Shown piece by piece: positions 16,372 to 21,435 of a stretch of DNA of 64,000 bases (the stretch's first letter is position 1; each line of letters starts with the position of its first letter). The stretch covers positions 1,054,001 to 1,118,000 of the forward strand of contig NZ_CP016793.1 of NCBI RefSeq assembly GCF_001701025.1, read 5' to 3'. The notes beneath the pieces are model-generated. The model was not told where the DNA came from, did no database searches, and saw only the letters and a program-made list of their open reading frames with translations. Made by a program: the position numbers and the translations under genes. This stretch comes from Lentzea guizhouensis. GTDB taxonomy: Bacteria > Actinomycetota > Actinomycetes > Mycobacteriales > Pseudonocardiaceae.

Positions 16372-17682
16372 ATGACGGTTCCCGGCCGGACCGCCGACCC
16401 GCGGTCCAACGCTGTGCACAACCTGCGCGAGGCCCGCATCGCGCTCGACGAGGGCAGGCCGGGCGAGGCACTGGAGTTCGCGGAGAAGGCCGTCGCCGCG
16501 TTCGCCTGGCTGGACGACGTCGAAGGGGTCGCGGAGGGCGTGCTCGCCCAGTCCGTGGCGCTGGGCAAGCGCGGTCTGTGGCCCAGCGCGCTCGACACCA
16601 TCGACCGGGTGCAGGAGATCGCGGCGGCGAACCGCCACATCGGACTGCAGGCGCGGTGCAGCTTCTCCCGTGCCGTGGTGGAGCTGCGACTCGACTCGCG
16701 GGAACGCAGCTTCAACTCGTTCGCCCGCGCGCTGGGCCTGGCCGAGCTCACCGGCGACAACGAGCTGATCGGCTCGGTGCTGTTCGAGCAGGCGCGGGTG
16801 ATGCGCGTGCAGTACCACGAGCACTGCATGATCCGCACCGAGGAGAGCCGCTGCAGCCTCGACGGCGAACCGTGCGTGCGCAAGCTCCGGCGCGCGGAAG
16901 CCTTGTGCGCCCAGGTGCGCGACCGCTGGAAGCAGGTCGGCGACCCGGTGCGGATGGCGATGGTCAACGTCCTGCTGACACACGTGCGCATCGATCTGGG
17001 CGAACTTGACCGCGCGCACCGCAGCTGGCAGCGCGCTGACCAGTTGCTTGCCGGAAGGAACCGCCCGGTGGCGCGGGCGGAGGCGTTGATGGCGCGGGCC
17101 AGGCTGAGCGGGGCACGGGGCCGCCACCCGGAGCAGATCACCCAGTTGACGCAGGCCGCCGAACTGGCCATGAGCTGTCTCGCCCGCGAGGTCGCGGTGC
17201 ACGCGCACCAGCAGCTGAGCGAGGCGTGGGAGCGGACGGGCGACTTCGAACGGGCGCTGCGGCACGCGCGGCTGCAGCTGGAGCAGTACCGGCTGTGGGA
17301 GCTGCAGGAAGGCCGCGACCTGTTGCGGATGCGCGAGCACGACCTGTCGTCACGGCTCGTGGAACAGTTGGCGCACAGGCGTTTCGAGCCCAAGCGCGAG
17401 GACGCGGTGGTGCGCGTGCCGCACACCGGGGAGCTGCGGGAGACCGGTACCGCCGAGCACACGAACACCCGGATCGCCAGGGCGTTGCGGGCCGGGCTGA
17501 CCAAGCGCGGCATCGAGGTGCTGCGGCTCGTGGCGGCGGGAGCGAGCACCGCGATGATCGCCGAGTCGCTCGGGCTGTCACCGAAAACCGTGCAGAACCA
17601 CCTGCAGCGGATCTACTCGACACTTGACGTCAACGGCCGCTCCGGCGCGGTCGTGTGGTGGATGAGCTTGACCGACTCGTAG
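16372..17682 (+). CDS. TPR-containing LuxR-type transcriptional regulator
   Basis: The 436-residue protein has five to six TPR-like helical hairpins (about 15-330) and a C-terminal LuxR/GerE helix-turn-helix (about 365-430). The latter reads LTKRGIEVLRLVAAGAST, AESLGLSPKTVQNHLQRIYS and the ending RSGAVVWWMS. It lacks the NTPase domain of LAL regulators. The TPR part may sense a peptide or protein partner; the LuxR part should bind DNA. A Cys-rich loop in the middle (HEHCMIRTEESRCSLDGEPC) could bind metal. GGAAGAGGGGG precedes the ATG, 32 bp after the acyl-CoA synthetase stop, so the two genes are likely cotranscribed. Confidence 0.85.
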   Translation: MTVPGRTADPRSNAVHNLREARIALDEGRPGEALEFAEKAVAAFAWLDDVEGVAEGVLAQSVALGKRGLWPSALDTIDRVQEIAAANRHIGLQARCSFSRAVVELRLDSRERSFNSFARALGLAELTGDNELIGSVLFEQARVMRVQYHEHCMIRTEESRCSLDGEPCVRKLRRAEALCAQVRDRWKQVGDPVRMAMVNVLLTHVRIDLGELDRAHRSWQRADQLLAGRNRPVARAEALMARARLSGARGRHPEQITQLTQAAELAMSCLAREVAVHAHQQLSEAWERTGDFERALRHARLQLEQYRLWELQEGRDLLRMREHDLSSRLVEQLAHRRFEPKREDAVVRVPHTGELRETGTAEHTNTRIARALRAGLTKRGIEVLRLVAAGASTAMIAESLGLSPKTVQNHLQRIYSTLDVNGRSGAVVWWMSLTDS

Positions 17683-17907: not shown

Positions 17908-19155
17908 TCAGTGCTTGCGGAGCGCGATGCGGGCCACGTCGCGCCACAGGAGCGGGTCGACGCCCTCGGGGTTGATGTGCTCCAGCAGCGCGGCCAGCGC
18001 CGTGCGCGCGCCCGTGCCGCCCTCCTGGTCGACCTCGTCGGCGGCGCGCACGAGCAGGAGGTGGCACCGCAGCTGCTGTTCGGCGTCGAGCCGGCCGGTC
18101 GCGAGCGCCTCCTCGGCGAGCACGCGCGCCCTGTCCACCTCGCCGTCGCGCAACGCGAGCTCGGCACGCAACGCCCTGGCGTGCGCGAGCAGCCCGTCCG
18201 GCCGGCGCATCGCGGCGACCGCCGTCTCCACGGCGTCCAGCAGGGCGACGACGTCGTCGAGGTTCGCACCGGGCGTGCGCAACCCGATGGACGCGCCGGC
18301 GAGCCGCACCCGGCACCGGTACTCGGGATCCCCGTCGAAGTCGTCGAGCAGCGCGACGGCCTCGCGGATGCAGTGCGCGGCCTCGGTCCGGTCGCCCAGC
18401 CGGTCGGCCACCTTGGCGCGCACCCACCACGTCGAGATGGCGAGCCGGTCGCGGCCGAGTTCGGGCAGCCGCGCGGAGAGCTGGTCCACGACCTGTTCGG
18501 CGTCGGCGAGACGGCCGGCGGCGGACAGCTCGGCGCACAACGCGATCAGCGCGCGGGTGTTGACCCGGCGCACCCGGTCGCCGTCACCACCGGCCAGCTC
18601 GACGGCCTCGGTCGCCGCCCGCACGGATTCGGCCGTCCGGCCGAGGCGCCGCAACGCCGCGGCGCGCAGGATCTCCACCAACGCGTCCACCGCCGGACCT
18701 GGAGACCACGACTTGCGCAGCTTCGCCGCCGCCAGCAGCAGACCCTCGCGGTCGCGCTGCCTGGCCAGCATCACGAGCCTGGTCCAGCGCACGCACCAGC
18801 CGAACATCTCCTCGTCCGACCGCTTTCCCAGCGCCTCCAGCAGGTCGACGGCCGTCACCAGGTCCCCGTCGTGGTAGGCGAGCAGCGCCTCGCACCACGC
18901 CAGCGCCTCGTCCTGCATCGCGGTGCGGTCCTCGTCGACCATCAGCTCGGTGGGGTCGACGCCGAGCACCTCGGCGAGCCTGCGCACGACAGCGGGCGAG
19001 GGCACCCGTTCGCCGGACTCCAGTCTCGACACGTAGCTCATGGAGACGCCGGGGCACGCGAGGTCCTTTTGGGACAAACCGCGCTGCAGCCGGACCGCCC
19101 GCAGGCGCGCGCCGAACCTCGTCAACGACTTCCTGCCCTCATCCACGGCCGCCAC
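17908..19155 (-). CDS. XRE-family regulator with TPR sensor domain (RRNPP-like)
   Basis: The 415-residue protein has an N-terminal XRE/Cro helix-turn-helix (about 14-70): LRAVRLQRGLSQKDLA, GVSMSYVSRLESGERVPS and VRRLAEVLGVDP. A long all-helical region follows (about 80-410) with TPR-like pairs such as AAALRRLGRTAESVRAATEA and AKVADRLGDRTEAAHCIREA. XRE-plus-TPR is the architecture of peptide-sensing RRNPP regulators. The divergent gene 21 bp away encodes a tiny exported peptide. GTG 19155 is used; GTG 19146 (MDEGRKS) is equally plausible. The spacer is too short for two separate promoters, so each promoter must overlap the other gene and the two are probably co-regulated. Confidence 0.85.
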   Translation of the reverse strand: MAAVDEGRKSLTRFGARLRAVRLQRGLSQKDLACPGVSMSYVSRLESGERVPSPAVVRRLAEVLGVDPTELMVDEDRTAMQDEALAWCEALLAYHDGDLVTAVDLLEALGKRSDEEMFGWCVRWTRLVMLARQRDREGLLLAAAKLRKSWSPGPAVDALVEILRAAALRRLGRTAESVRAATEAVELAGGDGDRVRRVNTRALIALCAELSAAGRLADAEQVVDQLSARLPELGRDRLAISTWWVRAKVADRLGDRTEAAHCIREAVALLDDFDGDPEYRCRVRLAGASIGLRTPGANLDDVVALLDAVETAVAAMRRPDGLLAHARALRAELALRDGEVDRARVLAEEALATGRLDAEQQLRCHLLLVRAADEVDQEGGTGARTALAALLEHINPEGVDPLLWRDVARIALRKH

Positions 19156-19176
19156 CTATCGGAACGGAGCACCTCA

Positions 19177-19308
19177 ATGAAGTTGAACACTATCGCTCGA
19201 ACCATCGCCGCCGTGATGCTCAGTTTGGGCGCCATCGCGGCGGTGAGCGCGACGGCGGCGGCCGACCCGGCCGAGCAGTTCACGCCGCCGTACAGCGTCA
19301 CGCGCTGA
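19177..19308 (+). CDS. 43-residue exported peptide, candidate signal for the XRE-TPR regulator
   Basis: From ATG 19177 (GGAG about 10 nt upstream) the product begins MKLNTIARTIAAVMLSLG. It has a positively charged start, a hydrophobic core and an Ala-rich SATAAA cleavage site, leaving a mature peptide of about 14 residues, DPAEQFTPPYSVTR. The gene is divergent from the XRE-TPR gene and is followed by a strong hairpin at 19327-19365, so it appears to be a stand-alone transcript. The layout resembles peptide pheromone precursors of RRNPP systems. An alternative is a short cell-wall-associated peptide of other function. Confidence 0.7.
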   Translation: MKLNTIARTIAAVMLSLGAIAAVSATAAADPAEQFTPPYSVTR

Positions 19309-19326
19309 CGCTCGCACCGGTCCGTT

Positions 19327-19365
19327 CCGGCCGGTCCTGCCTCCCTCGCACGCAGGACCGGCCGG
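19327..19365 (+). terminator. Hairpin terminator after the exported-peptide gene
   Basis: CCGGCCGGTCCTGC and GCAGGACCGGCCGG form a perfect 14-bp stem with an 11-nt loop, 18 bp after the peptide stop. There is no T-run, as is common in high-GC actinomycetes. Confidence 0.7.
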
Positions 19366-19429
19366 CCCCGGACACACCAATTGACACACCTGGCCACACC
19401 ACCGGGTGGCGGTGGTGCACAGTTGTGGG

Positions 19430-19918
19430 GTGACTCTGCAACTGCGCGCGCCACGTCACCAGGTCAGCCCGAAGTCCGTCCTGCTGTGGACGATGCAGGC
19501 CGCCGTGTTCTGGCTGGTGCTGTTCATCCCGCAGCTCGTCGTGTTCCTGCTGGTGGACTCCCCGCCCACGTGGGAGCTGGCACTGCTGGTCGCGACCGGC
19601 GTCGTCGGCGTCGTGCACACCGCGGTCGAACCGAGCTGGCGCTACCGCGTGCACCGCTGGGAGACGACCTCGGACGCGGTCTACACGCTGTCGGGCTGGC
19701 TGAACCAGGAGTGGCGGGTCGCCCCGGTCTCGCGCATCCAGACCGTCGACACCAAGCGCGGACCGTTCCAGCAGCTGCTCGGCCTGGCCACGGTGACCGT
19801 CACGACGGCGTCCGCGGCGGGTCCGGTGGAGATCGAGGGCCTGGACCACGAGACCGCGCGCCGGCTCGTGGAGGAGCTCACCACGACCACGCAGGCCACC
19901 CCGGGTGATGCCACGTGA
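19430..19918 (+). CDS. Bacterial PH-domain membrane protein (YdbS-like)
   Basis: This product of about 162 residues has two adjacent membrane helices (AAVFWLVLFIPQLVVFLLV and ELALLVATGVVGVVHT) followed by a bPH2/DUF304 beta-domain with YRVHRWETTSDAVYTLSGWL and VSRIQTVDTKRGPFQQLLGL. The last contains the family-typical IQTVDxxRGPxQ pattern. It overlaps the next gene, a larger three-domain bPH2 protein, by 4 nt, as in ydbS-ydbT pairs. The role is membrane-associated and poorly known; in Bacillus the pair affects resistance to antimicrobial peptides. GTG 19430 is chosen; an in-frame GTG at 19406 would add 8 residues, and neither has a clear ribosome binding site. Confidence 0.8.
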   Translation: MTLQLRAPRHQVSPKSVLLWTMQAAVFWLVLFIPQLVVFLLVDSPPTWELALLVATGVVGVVHTAVEPSWRYRVHRWETTSDAVYTLSGWLNQEWRVAPVSRIQTVDTKRGPFQQLLGLATVTVTTASAAGPVEIEGLDHETARRLVEELTTTTQATPGDAT

Positions 19919-21435
19919 CCACGCCGGCGAACCTGCCCGCCGACCTGCCCCCGGCACCGGAGCTCACCGAGCCGCTCGCGCAGTGGCACCGGCTGCACGT
20001 GCGGATGCTCATCGTGCGGCCGCTCAACGAGAGCATCGCGATGCTGGTGCCGATCTTCGTGCTGCTCTTCACCGGTGACGGCGAGAAGTGGCGGCTCATC
20101 GCGAGCGGCGCGACGGTCGGCGCGATCCTCGTGTTCAGCTTCCTGCTCTGGCGCACCACGAAGTACCGCATCACCGACGACCAGGTGGAGCTGCACACCG
20201 GTCTGCTGACCCGCAAACAGCTCTCCGTGCCCCGCGATCGCATCAGGACGGTCGACCTCACCTCCAAGCCCGGCCACCGGGTGTTCGGGCTGTCGGCGGT
20301 GCGGATCGGCACCGGGCAGCAGGACGTGCCCGGCACCGACGGGCTGACGCTCGACGCGGTGACGTCGGAGGAGGCCGAACGGCTGCGCGTGCTGTTGCTG
20401 CAGAAGACCGTCCAGCCGCAGTGGACCGGCGGCGAGGCGGTGGAAGCGGCACCGCCCGCGCCGTCCGAGATGATCTCGCAGCTCGACCTGAAGTGGCTGA
20501 AGTTCGCGCCGCTGTCGTTGTCGGGGCTGGTCGCGATCGGCGCGGTGTTCGGCGTGCTGTCGAACTACGCCGACGACCTCGGTCTCGACGTCGTGCACGA
20601 CCTGTGGGGCTGGCTGTTCGACCACCCGAGCTTCTCGCTCATCGGCGGGTTCGTGGTGGCGCTGGTGGTGCTGGGGCTCGTGCTCTCGGTGCCGCTGTAC
20701 GTCCTGCAGTTCTGGAACTACCGGCTGACTCGTGAGCCGGACGGGACCCTGCGCGTGCAACGGGGTCTGCTCACCACCCGGTCGGTGTCGGTCGAGGAAC
20801 AACGGCTGCGCGGCGTCGACATCCAGGAACCGCTGCTGGTGCGCGCGGGCAAGGGCGCGAAAGCCGTTGCGGTGACGACGGGTCTGGGTTCGAAGGGCGA
20901 GAGCAACCTGCTGCTGCCGCCCGCACCGCTCGCGGTCGCGCACCAGGTGTCGCGCGACGTGCTGCGGGTCGAGGACGACCCGACGACGCGGAAGCTGCGC
21001 AGGCACCCGTTCGCCGCGTTGCGCCGCAGCCTGTTCCGCCACATCGTGCCGTGGGTCGTGATCGCGGTCGCGCTGGCGATCTGGGCGCCGTCGTGGGCGT
21101 GGCCGATCCCCGCCTTGATCCTGCCGTTCTCCGCCTTGGTCGGCTGGGACAACTACCGCTCGCTCGGCAACGCGCTCGACCCGCGCTATCTGGTGACCCG
21201 CAACGGTTCCCTGGTGCGCAGCACGGTCGCCCTGCAGCGCACCGGCATCATCGGCTGGCGCATCCAGCGGTCGTTCTTCCAGCGCCGCAGCGGTCTGCTG
21301 ACCGTCGGCGCGACGACGGCCGCCGGTGCGGGCATCTACCGCGTGACCGACGTCGGCGAGTCCGAGGGGCTGGCGCTGGCCGACGAGGCCGTGCCGGACC
21401 TGCTGCGGCCGTTCCTGGTCACCGACGGCGGATGA
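19915..21435 (+). CDS. Bacterial PH-domain membrane protein (YdbT-like)
   Basis: The 506-residue protein contains three bPH2/DUF304 units separated by pairs of membrane helices. These helices are near 40-75, near 195-265 (LSGLVAIGAVFGVL; GGFVVALVVLGLVL) and near 375-410 (IVPWVVIAVALAIWAP; IPALILPFSALVGW). Each unit shows the YRITDDQVELHTGLLTRKQ-like start and the RIRTVDLTSKPGHRVFGL-like core. The GTG start sits in the GTGA overlap with the preceding gene, so translation is coupled. The two probably form a membrane complex, by comparison with ydbS-ydbT. Ligand and function are unknown. Confidence 0.85.
   Translation: MTTPANLPADLPPAPELTEPLAQWHRLHVRMLIVRPLNESIAMLVPIFVLLFTGDGEKWRLIASGATVGAILVFSFLLWRTTKYRITDDQVELHTGLLTRKQLSVPRDRIRTVDLTSKPGHRVFGLSAVRIGTGQQDVPGTDGLTLDAVTSEEAERLRVLLLQKTVQPQWTGGEAVEAAPPAPSEMISQLDLKWLKFAPLSLSGLVAIGAVFGVLSNYADDLGLDVVHDLWGWLFDHPSFSLIGGFVVALVVLGLVLSVPLYVLQFWNYRLTREPDGTLRVQRGLLTTRSVSVEEQRLRGVDIQEPLLVRAGKGAKAVAVTTGLGSKGESNLLLPPAPLAVAHQVSRDVLRVEDDPTTRKLRRHPFAALRRSLFRHIVPWVVIAVALAIWAPSWAWPIPALILPFSALVGWDNYRSLGNALDPRYLVTRNGSLVRSTVALQRTGIIGWRIQRSFFQRRSGLLTVGATTAAGAGIYRVTDVGESEGLALADEAVPDLLRPFLVTDGG

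Follow-up and report, generated by a model that had tools for sequence, protein, structure and literature searches.

A conserved XRE-TPR regulator and its divergent exported-peptide gene in Lentzea: a likely peptide-signalling module resembling RRNPP systems

Could a soil bacterium related to Streptomyces talk by peptides, in the manner described mainly for Bacillus-like bacteria? A locus of Lentzea guizhouensis raises this question. In a 64,000-nucleotide stretch of its 10-Mb genome (contig NZ_CP016793.1, positions 1,054,001 to 1,118,000; hereafter the window, whose own numbering we use), a gene for a regulator with an XRE-type helix-turn-helix (HTH) and tetratricopeptide repeats (TPR) stands back to back with a 43-codon gene for a predicted exported peptide. 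An earlier reading of this DNA, here called the original prediction, had proposed the two as a candidate signalling pair. That the two genes make up a genuine, conserved pair with a functional link is, in our judgement, nearly certain, and we consider it likely that they form a peptide-signalling module like those of the RRNPP group, with signalling between cells through a short core of the peptide.

The regulator is encoded on the reverse strand. Its long reading (17908..19155, GTG start at 19155, 415 amino acids) scores 58 bits against HTH_31 and 30 bits against TPR_2, both over the Pfam cut-offs, which confirms the predicted domains as well as the open reading frame (ORF). Very probably, the true start is the TTG of codon 11 at 19125 (17908..19125, 405 amino acids), because one Lentzea genome (L030) has ATG at this codon, GGCAGGA stands ahead of it, and matches from the nearest other genera begin at residues 12-14, with some distant ones extending to residues 6-8. 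With this start, the two start codons would be separated by 51 bp, not by the 21 bp originally given. The regulator is 84-95% identical to those of 19 named Lentzea loci, including one filed as Nocardia sp. NRRL S-836, and in Lentzea its ratio of nonsynonymous to synonymous variation (pN/pS) is 0.07 over the HTH and 0.19 elsewhere. AlphaFold2 predicts an HTH and a TPR superhelix (pLDDT 90.7), with conserved Arg and Trp residues on the inner side of its groove.

The peptide gene (19177..19308, forward strand), preceded by GGAG at 19166-19169, encodes 43 amino acids (MKLNTIARTIAAVMLSLGAIAAVSATAAADPAEQFTPPYSVTR). Residues 1-29 (19177..19263) were judged by eye to be a Sec-type signal peptide, with cleavage after AAA and before D; its amino acids are kept while its codons vary. 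The genus set comprised 24 Lentzea genomes including our own, 22 with a full-length regulator and two (G010 and G012) with fragments only. The peptide frame lies beside the intact regulator in 22/22 and is also present in the other two, so that its expected conservation in relatives is borne out in 24/24. Along the precursor, pN/pS starts at 0.19 in residues 1-8, rises to 0.59 over the remaining signal peptide and falls to 0.26 in the core F-T-P-P-Y (19279..19293), the likely signal; it is 1.16 for the linker and 1.04 for the C-terminal tail SVTR (19294..19305), near-neutral drift. Judged by these substitution patterns, the frame is under codon-level selection in the signal peptide and core. 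Across the 22 Lentzea, the core F-x-P-P-[YF] has F, P and P in 22/22 and Y in 21/22, and FTPPY recurs in the Umezawaea precursor. The same 22 precursors carry 15 distinct tails, many containing Cys, and five database proteins that are close precursor variants have the tails SITH, SITH, SISH, VIAP and CAKP. In G010 (L085) and G012 (L086) the peptide looks intact, with cores FTPPY and FHPPY, despite the reduction of the regulator to fragments.

Which part of the precursor would carry the message? The tail of about 14 residues left after cleavage had been proposed as the signal. Near-neutral variation in linker and tail rules this out as the likeliest form, together with the relation between tail and TPR distances in 20 Lentzea (raw r -0.09; partial r, beyond species distance, -0.31; p 0.99). 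Because these distances do not correlate, we favour the short core as the signal; the tail would be trimmed off or without relevance. A conserved mature tail had been expected in relatives: the short core is indeed kept or repeated, but the tail itself is variable.

The 51-bp spacer between the probable start codons (19126..19176) is near-invariant in Lentzea and presumably holds overlapping promoters and an operator. Annotated regulator codons 1-10, which correspond to this strip, have a synonymous variation (pS) of 0.023, compared with 0.25-0.27 across the rest of the regulator, the lowest among 10-codon windows and tied with the window one codon on. The strip is therefore conserved at the DNA level, which is what one would expect of an operator or promoter. 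A consensus scan of 18950-19450 found no sigma-70-like promoter and no U-run terminator. A palindromic operator, GTCATC-N3-GATGAC, considered over the start codon at two related loci (L065 and L066), was rejected, as 16 and 19 of 60 shuffles equal it.

Is a small exported partner simply common beside XRE genes? In a scan of 40 further XRE genes from this genome, part of its 104 other HTH_31 matches, no divergent short signal-peptide ORF of this type came up, and the same scan found 20/20 positives (the 19 named Lentzea loci and Umezawaea). The scan demands a basic residue before the hydrophobic stretch and so tests the Lentzea type only; three divergent hits in the control set are ordinary or spurious frames by eye. 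Control loci L124 and L128 have same-strand upstream small ORFs, exported or membrane-type, with a hydrophobic N-terminus. At L128, upstream of an XRE gene (464 amino acids) at C1:5438480 of the same genome, the same-strand exported peptide ends in TDAPNGGGNPWHD, possibly marking a second pair of another type.

The pairing extends well beyond Lentzea. Regulator loci were examined for peptides within fetched flanks of about 1.5 to 6 kb, and at most 4 candidates were scored per genome in the family and class searches, so that homologue counts are lower bounds. At least 45 of 390 family genomes have a regulator match (E 1e-12), and 36 of the 45 have an exported small peptide nearby: 23 Lentzea, Umezawaea (G382), G224, G376, G377, G252, G104-G106 and G208-G212. 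The fetched flanks contained no such peptide in G225 (Goodfellowiella), G040, G132, G152, G185, G226, G230, G337 and G384, nor at Saccharothrix coeruleofusca L060. The relatives' cores are often repeated and at the protein end. Repeated forms include DITNP x6 (L068), DIGHP-like x5 (L069), DLTHP x4 (L073, L074), DVVYP-like x6 (L077), [IV]EWP (L070-L072), IDWP[PT]RA x2 (L064) and GIEWPD[SP] x5 (L067), and a single CGIEWPDP occurs in L065 and L066. As first read, the precursors of L068-L077 have a hydrophobic N-terminus with no basic n-region. At L065-L067 the regulator is followed, some 1 kb downstream, by the precursor on the opposite strand, with the bPH_2-type genes that follow the Lentzea pair still in place; at L064, L059, L060 and the tested DITNP, DIGHP and EWP loci, the Lentzea flanking genes are not in the fetched flanks. 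Because the pairing persists where the precursor has moved or the flanking genes differ, the linkage of regulator and peptide is not mere neighbourhood.

At class level, at least 13 of 394 sampled genomes, our own included, match the regulator (E 1e-30), and 6 of the 12 others have an exported small peptide beside it. Three of these repeat the core (G720, DIEWP x2; G772, DISWP x3; G562, DIGWP x2) and three end in SIEWP (G407), ALNWPKCC (G676) or GPPFCC (G416). On the regulator tree, by eye, FxPPY is limited to one clade and xIxWP forms to others; at an acidobacterial locus (L061) the regulator match covers the HTH only. Short ORFs ending in xIxWP-type cores, some by chance, occur at 18 of 37 regulator loci (178,272 bases) and at 0 of 47 other XRE loci (64,363 bases), a comparison that is not like-for-like in bases, and the loose pattern also appears twice in the 64-kb window. 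We left uncounted five weak cases with ends such as DIDWPS, EIEWP and NVDWP and no clear signal peptide (L075, L076, L079, L099, L100), the chance-like L059, and L176, which ends in LDWP.

The motif also leads to precursors when used by itself. A pair of DIxWP codon strings spaced by 31-61 bases is present in 8/199 Streptomyces genomes, and the reversed control in 0/199. Seven of the eight motif-only matches are signal-peptide precursors with 2 to 13 copies, and a regulator lies within the fetched 3-14 kb for five of the seven (G927, G848, G720, G781 and G905, not G852 or G875). G720 is the seed, first found via its regulator, so the independent counts are 6/7 precursors and 4/6 near a regulator. 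The match counted as a miss, L105 (G815), carries two copies of the DNA motif, but these fall in an Arg-rich frame that lacks a signal peptide. The G875 precursor (L119, 6603-7355) has 13 IGWP copies and no XRE-TPR gene within 7 kb. On plasmid NZ_CP106799.1, a hypothetical-protein gene (88644-89354) occupies the place of this 13-copy precursor, with its neighbours unchanged, and roughly 18 kb from it (107736-109022) stands a regulator of the XRE-TPR type. Directly adjacent to the 13-copy precursor are genes for a class-V aminotransferase and a LuxR-family regulator, and a class-V aminotransferase-fold (cysteine-desulfurase-like) gene adjoins several IGWP precursors in Streptomyces and Kitasatospora (L117, L119, L167, L170, L171).

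The named database proteins nearest the G927 precursor come from Streptomyces, and the G927 regulator as query matched 37 plasmid records (E 1e-20): 35 from Streptomyces, one from Kitasatospora and one from Embleya. At 6 of the 15 plasmid loci examined, all 15 on linear records, a clear precursor lies within 6 kb, annotated in all six cases as a hypothetical protein. By annotation, several plasmid loci sit amid nonribosomal peptide synthetase, polyketide or enediyne-type genes and Streptomyces antibiotic regulatory protein (SARP) regulators. On plasmid SGLP1 of S. globisporus C-1027, a 55-amino-acid exported hypothetical protein (L163, 4801-4968; WP_158514079.1) with cores DVEWP and EVEWP is encoded near an XRE-TPR gene; the interval of about 1 kb between the two includes a gene with the annotation acyl carrier protein. 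A passage of PMC6553541 cites the lidamycin cluster as located on SGLP1, and one of PMC2657911 gives its regulators as sgcR1-R3.

Downstream of the Lentzea peptide stop, a hairpin (19326..19366, forward strand) combines a 15-bp stem with an 11-nucleotide loop containing CTCCCTCGCA. The strong hairpin originally noted here is upheld by a folding energy of -42.1 kcal/mol (z -3.5; 1/200 shuffles as good), and it has no U-run. The hairpin with its invariant CU-rich loop CTCCCTCGCA is present in 20 of 22 Lentzea surveyed (the window, the 19 named loci, G010 and G012, with G005 and G011 outside the survey); L057 has a different hairpin, and L085, the G010 locus with the broken regulator, has none. 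In the 20 with the loop, the set used for covariation, 9 of the 15 stem pairs have changed on both sides and 94.3% of cells are paired, values reached by 0/500 shuffles, and with the partners shifted by 1-3 columns only 33-45% are paired. The combination of an unchanging loop with a covarying stem exceeds, to judge by this alignment, the needs of a plain terminator, and the hairpin is possibly a regulatory RNA element. The loop may resemble the CU-rich loops with which certain regulatory RNAs bind ribosome-binding sites. Rfam found no family in 19100-19500, only sub-threshold chance matches to microRNA precursors. As an antisense element the loop yielded no target: its exact complement has four occurrences in the genome, the hairpin itself included, and of the other three the one inspected (L179) has an ATG about 9 bases on, but lies within longer frames on both strands, including one of 487 amino acids.

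The genes around the pair are partly shared. A regulator with TPR and a LuxR-type HTH (16372..17682, forward strand; Pfam and synteny) adjoins it in the 19 named Lentzea loci, L086 and Umezawaea, and was not seen in the fetched flanks of L085 or of other relatives. Two bPH_2-type genes (19406-19918 and 19915-21435, forward strand), assigned by Pfam for the first and by synteny, follow the peptide gene. Their synteny with the regulator extends across Lentzea and Umezawaea to three further genomes, and they were not seen in the fetched flanks of other relatives. This bPH_2 pair (19406-21435) is possibly the target operon of the regulator and peptide.

How might the pair work? In the signalling reading, the precursor would leave via the Sec pathway, and signal peptidase and further proteases would cut it down to a short core, roughly FTPPY in this case and of xIxWP type in most relatives. 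The core would then re-enter a cell and bind the concave, arginine-lined face of the TPR superhelix, and the bound core would alter binding of the XRE domain to the shared 51-bp spacer, so that both genes, and probably other targets, come under control. The export signal is predicted from the precursor sequence and the fold from a structural model; we infer translation, processing, uptake, binding, regulation and targets. Two results weigh against this reading. Tail and TPR domain do not co-vary beyond species distance in the 20 Lentzea genomes, and no counted peptide lies at 6/12 class loci or 9/15 plasmid loci. The expectation that the regulator would rarely stand without a nearby exported peptide holds in 22/22 intact Lentzea and 36/45 family genomes, but for distant homologues those class and plasmid counts lean the other way.

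Could the small gene instead encode an exported effector, a bacteriocin-like peptide or a precursor of a ribosomally synthesized and post-translationally modified peptide (RiPP), with the XRE-TPR protein regulating only its production and sensing something else? An exported, short precursor with Cys-containing tails in many Lentzea would suit such a product, as would the class-V aminotransferase gene near several Streptomyces precursors and, close to one regulator on a plasmid, a gene with the annotation ATP-grasp-modified RiPP. The immediate neighbours of the Lentzea pair, and likewise in Umezawaea, are however bPH_2 and LuxR-TPR genes. Moreover, a five-residue core in as many as 13 copies, with free linkers between them, suits a processed signal more than a bacteriocin, and core type follows regulator clade by eye, with FxPPY in one and xIxWP forms in others. 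We regard an effector as unlikely.

The chance is slim that the peptide is a private anti-repressor or timer acting within the cell that makes it, or at that cell's envelope, rather than between cells. Selection on the Sec-type signal sequence of Lentzea itself argues against this, as does the hydrophobic N-terminus of the counted partners, even if the very tight divergent pairing, the conserved spacer and the xIxWP-ending ORFs without a clear signal peptide at L075, L076, L099 and L100 would suit it. That the peptide ORF is incidental, the conserved features being the divergent promoter region and the 3' hairpin RNA and the linkage neighbourhood inertia, is highly improbable: spacer and hairpin are strongly conserved, but so is the frame by codon-level selection on signal peptide and core, and like peptides occur in other neighbourhoods and other bacterial families.

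If signalling by a short core is the right reading, Actinobacteria may have their own widespread RRNPP-like language, written in xIxWP, and FxPPY in Lentzea, and carried by exported, often multi-copy precursors. Modules on linear Streptomyces plasmids amid antibiotic-type clusters, including SGLP1, may govern those clusters, and the Lentzea hairpin on the same transcript could double as regulatory RNA. We put this broader picture at slightly under an even chance. If right, the signalling reading would provide a directly testable peptide code in antibiotic producers, and synthetic pentapeptides would be candidate inducers of silent gene clusters.

How does the pair compare with known systems? 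NsdA-family regulators of actinomycetes (NCBIfam NF053720) share a TPR-like architecture, and the match includes the HTH, but the window regulator, at 20 bits, falls short of the cut-off of 75 and is not a member by that model; the NsdA family is not known to have a peptide partner. MalT/LuxR-type TPR regulators have a LuxR HTH and an ATPase domain, with a sugar ligand in MalT, whereas the window regulator is of XRE type and has no ATPase domain. For signalling in Actinobacteria, a section of one review (PMC4748050) describes gamma-butyrolactones and also cyclic or modified peptides. Among the matches listed for the open-licence literature, titles and abstract openings mention no XRE-TPR peptide signalling in Actinobacteria and none with these motifs.

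The closest likeness is to RRNPP(A) of Bacillota (PlcR-PapR, NprR-NprX, Rap-Phr, Rgg-SHP, ComR-ComS, PrgX and AimR-AimP), in which an XRE/HTH and TPR receptor is likewise encoded beside a small exported propeptide. As originally proposed, the regulator has the architecture of such receptors: its model aligns with NprR over 303-308 residues and with Rap entries over 268-314 (VIA-align). NprR and Rap are among the best bacterial fold matches, although a shared fold shows no function and the absence of matches to other families in this comparison excludes nothing. Rap proteins have no HTH. The sequence match to PlcR (2qfc; E 2.9e-11) spans profile residues 3-138 only, mostly the HTH, and ComR matches cover the HTH only; among the best 60 of 215 matches, none reaches the TPR part of RRNPP members. 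In the portions of these papers available to us, an RRNPP search covered Firmicutes and viruses (PMC10075063), RRNPPA is reported in Firmicutes, nearly all Bacilli (PMC9765709), and linear genetically encoded pheromones with an intracellular TPR receptor are described from Bacillota and phages (PMC10075063, PMC9765709, PMC13220807, PMC11343458). Propeptides with several pheromone copies, up to 8, are known in Bacillota (part of PMC11343458). Lentzea and its relatives differ in belonging to another phylum and in the core motif, xIxWP or FxPPY, and peptide binding is here presumed. By analogy, the pair would work like an RRNPP system, and it is this likeness that we propose.
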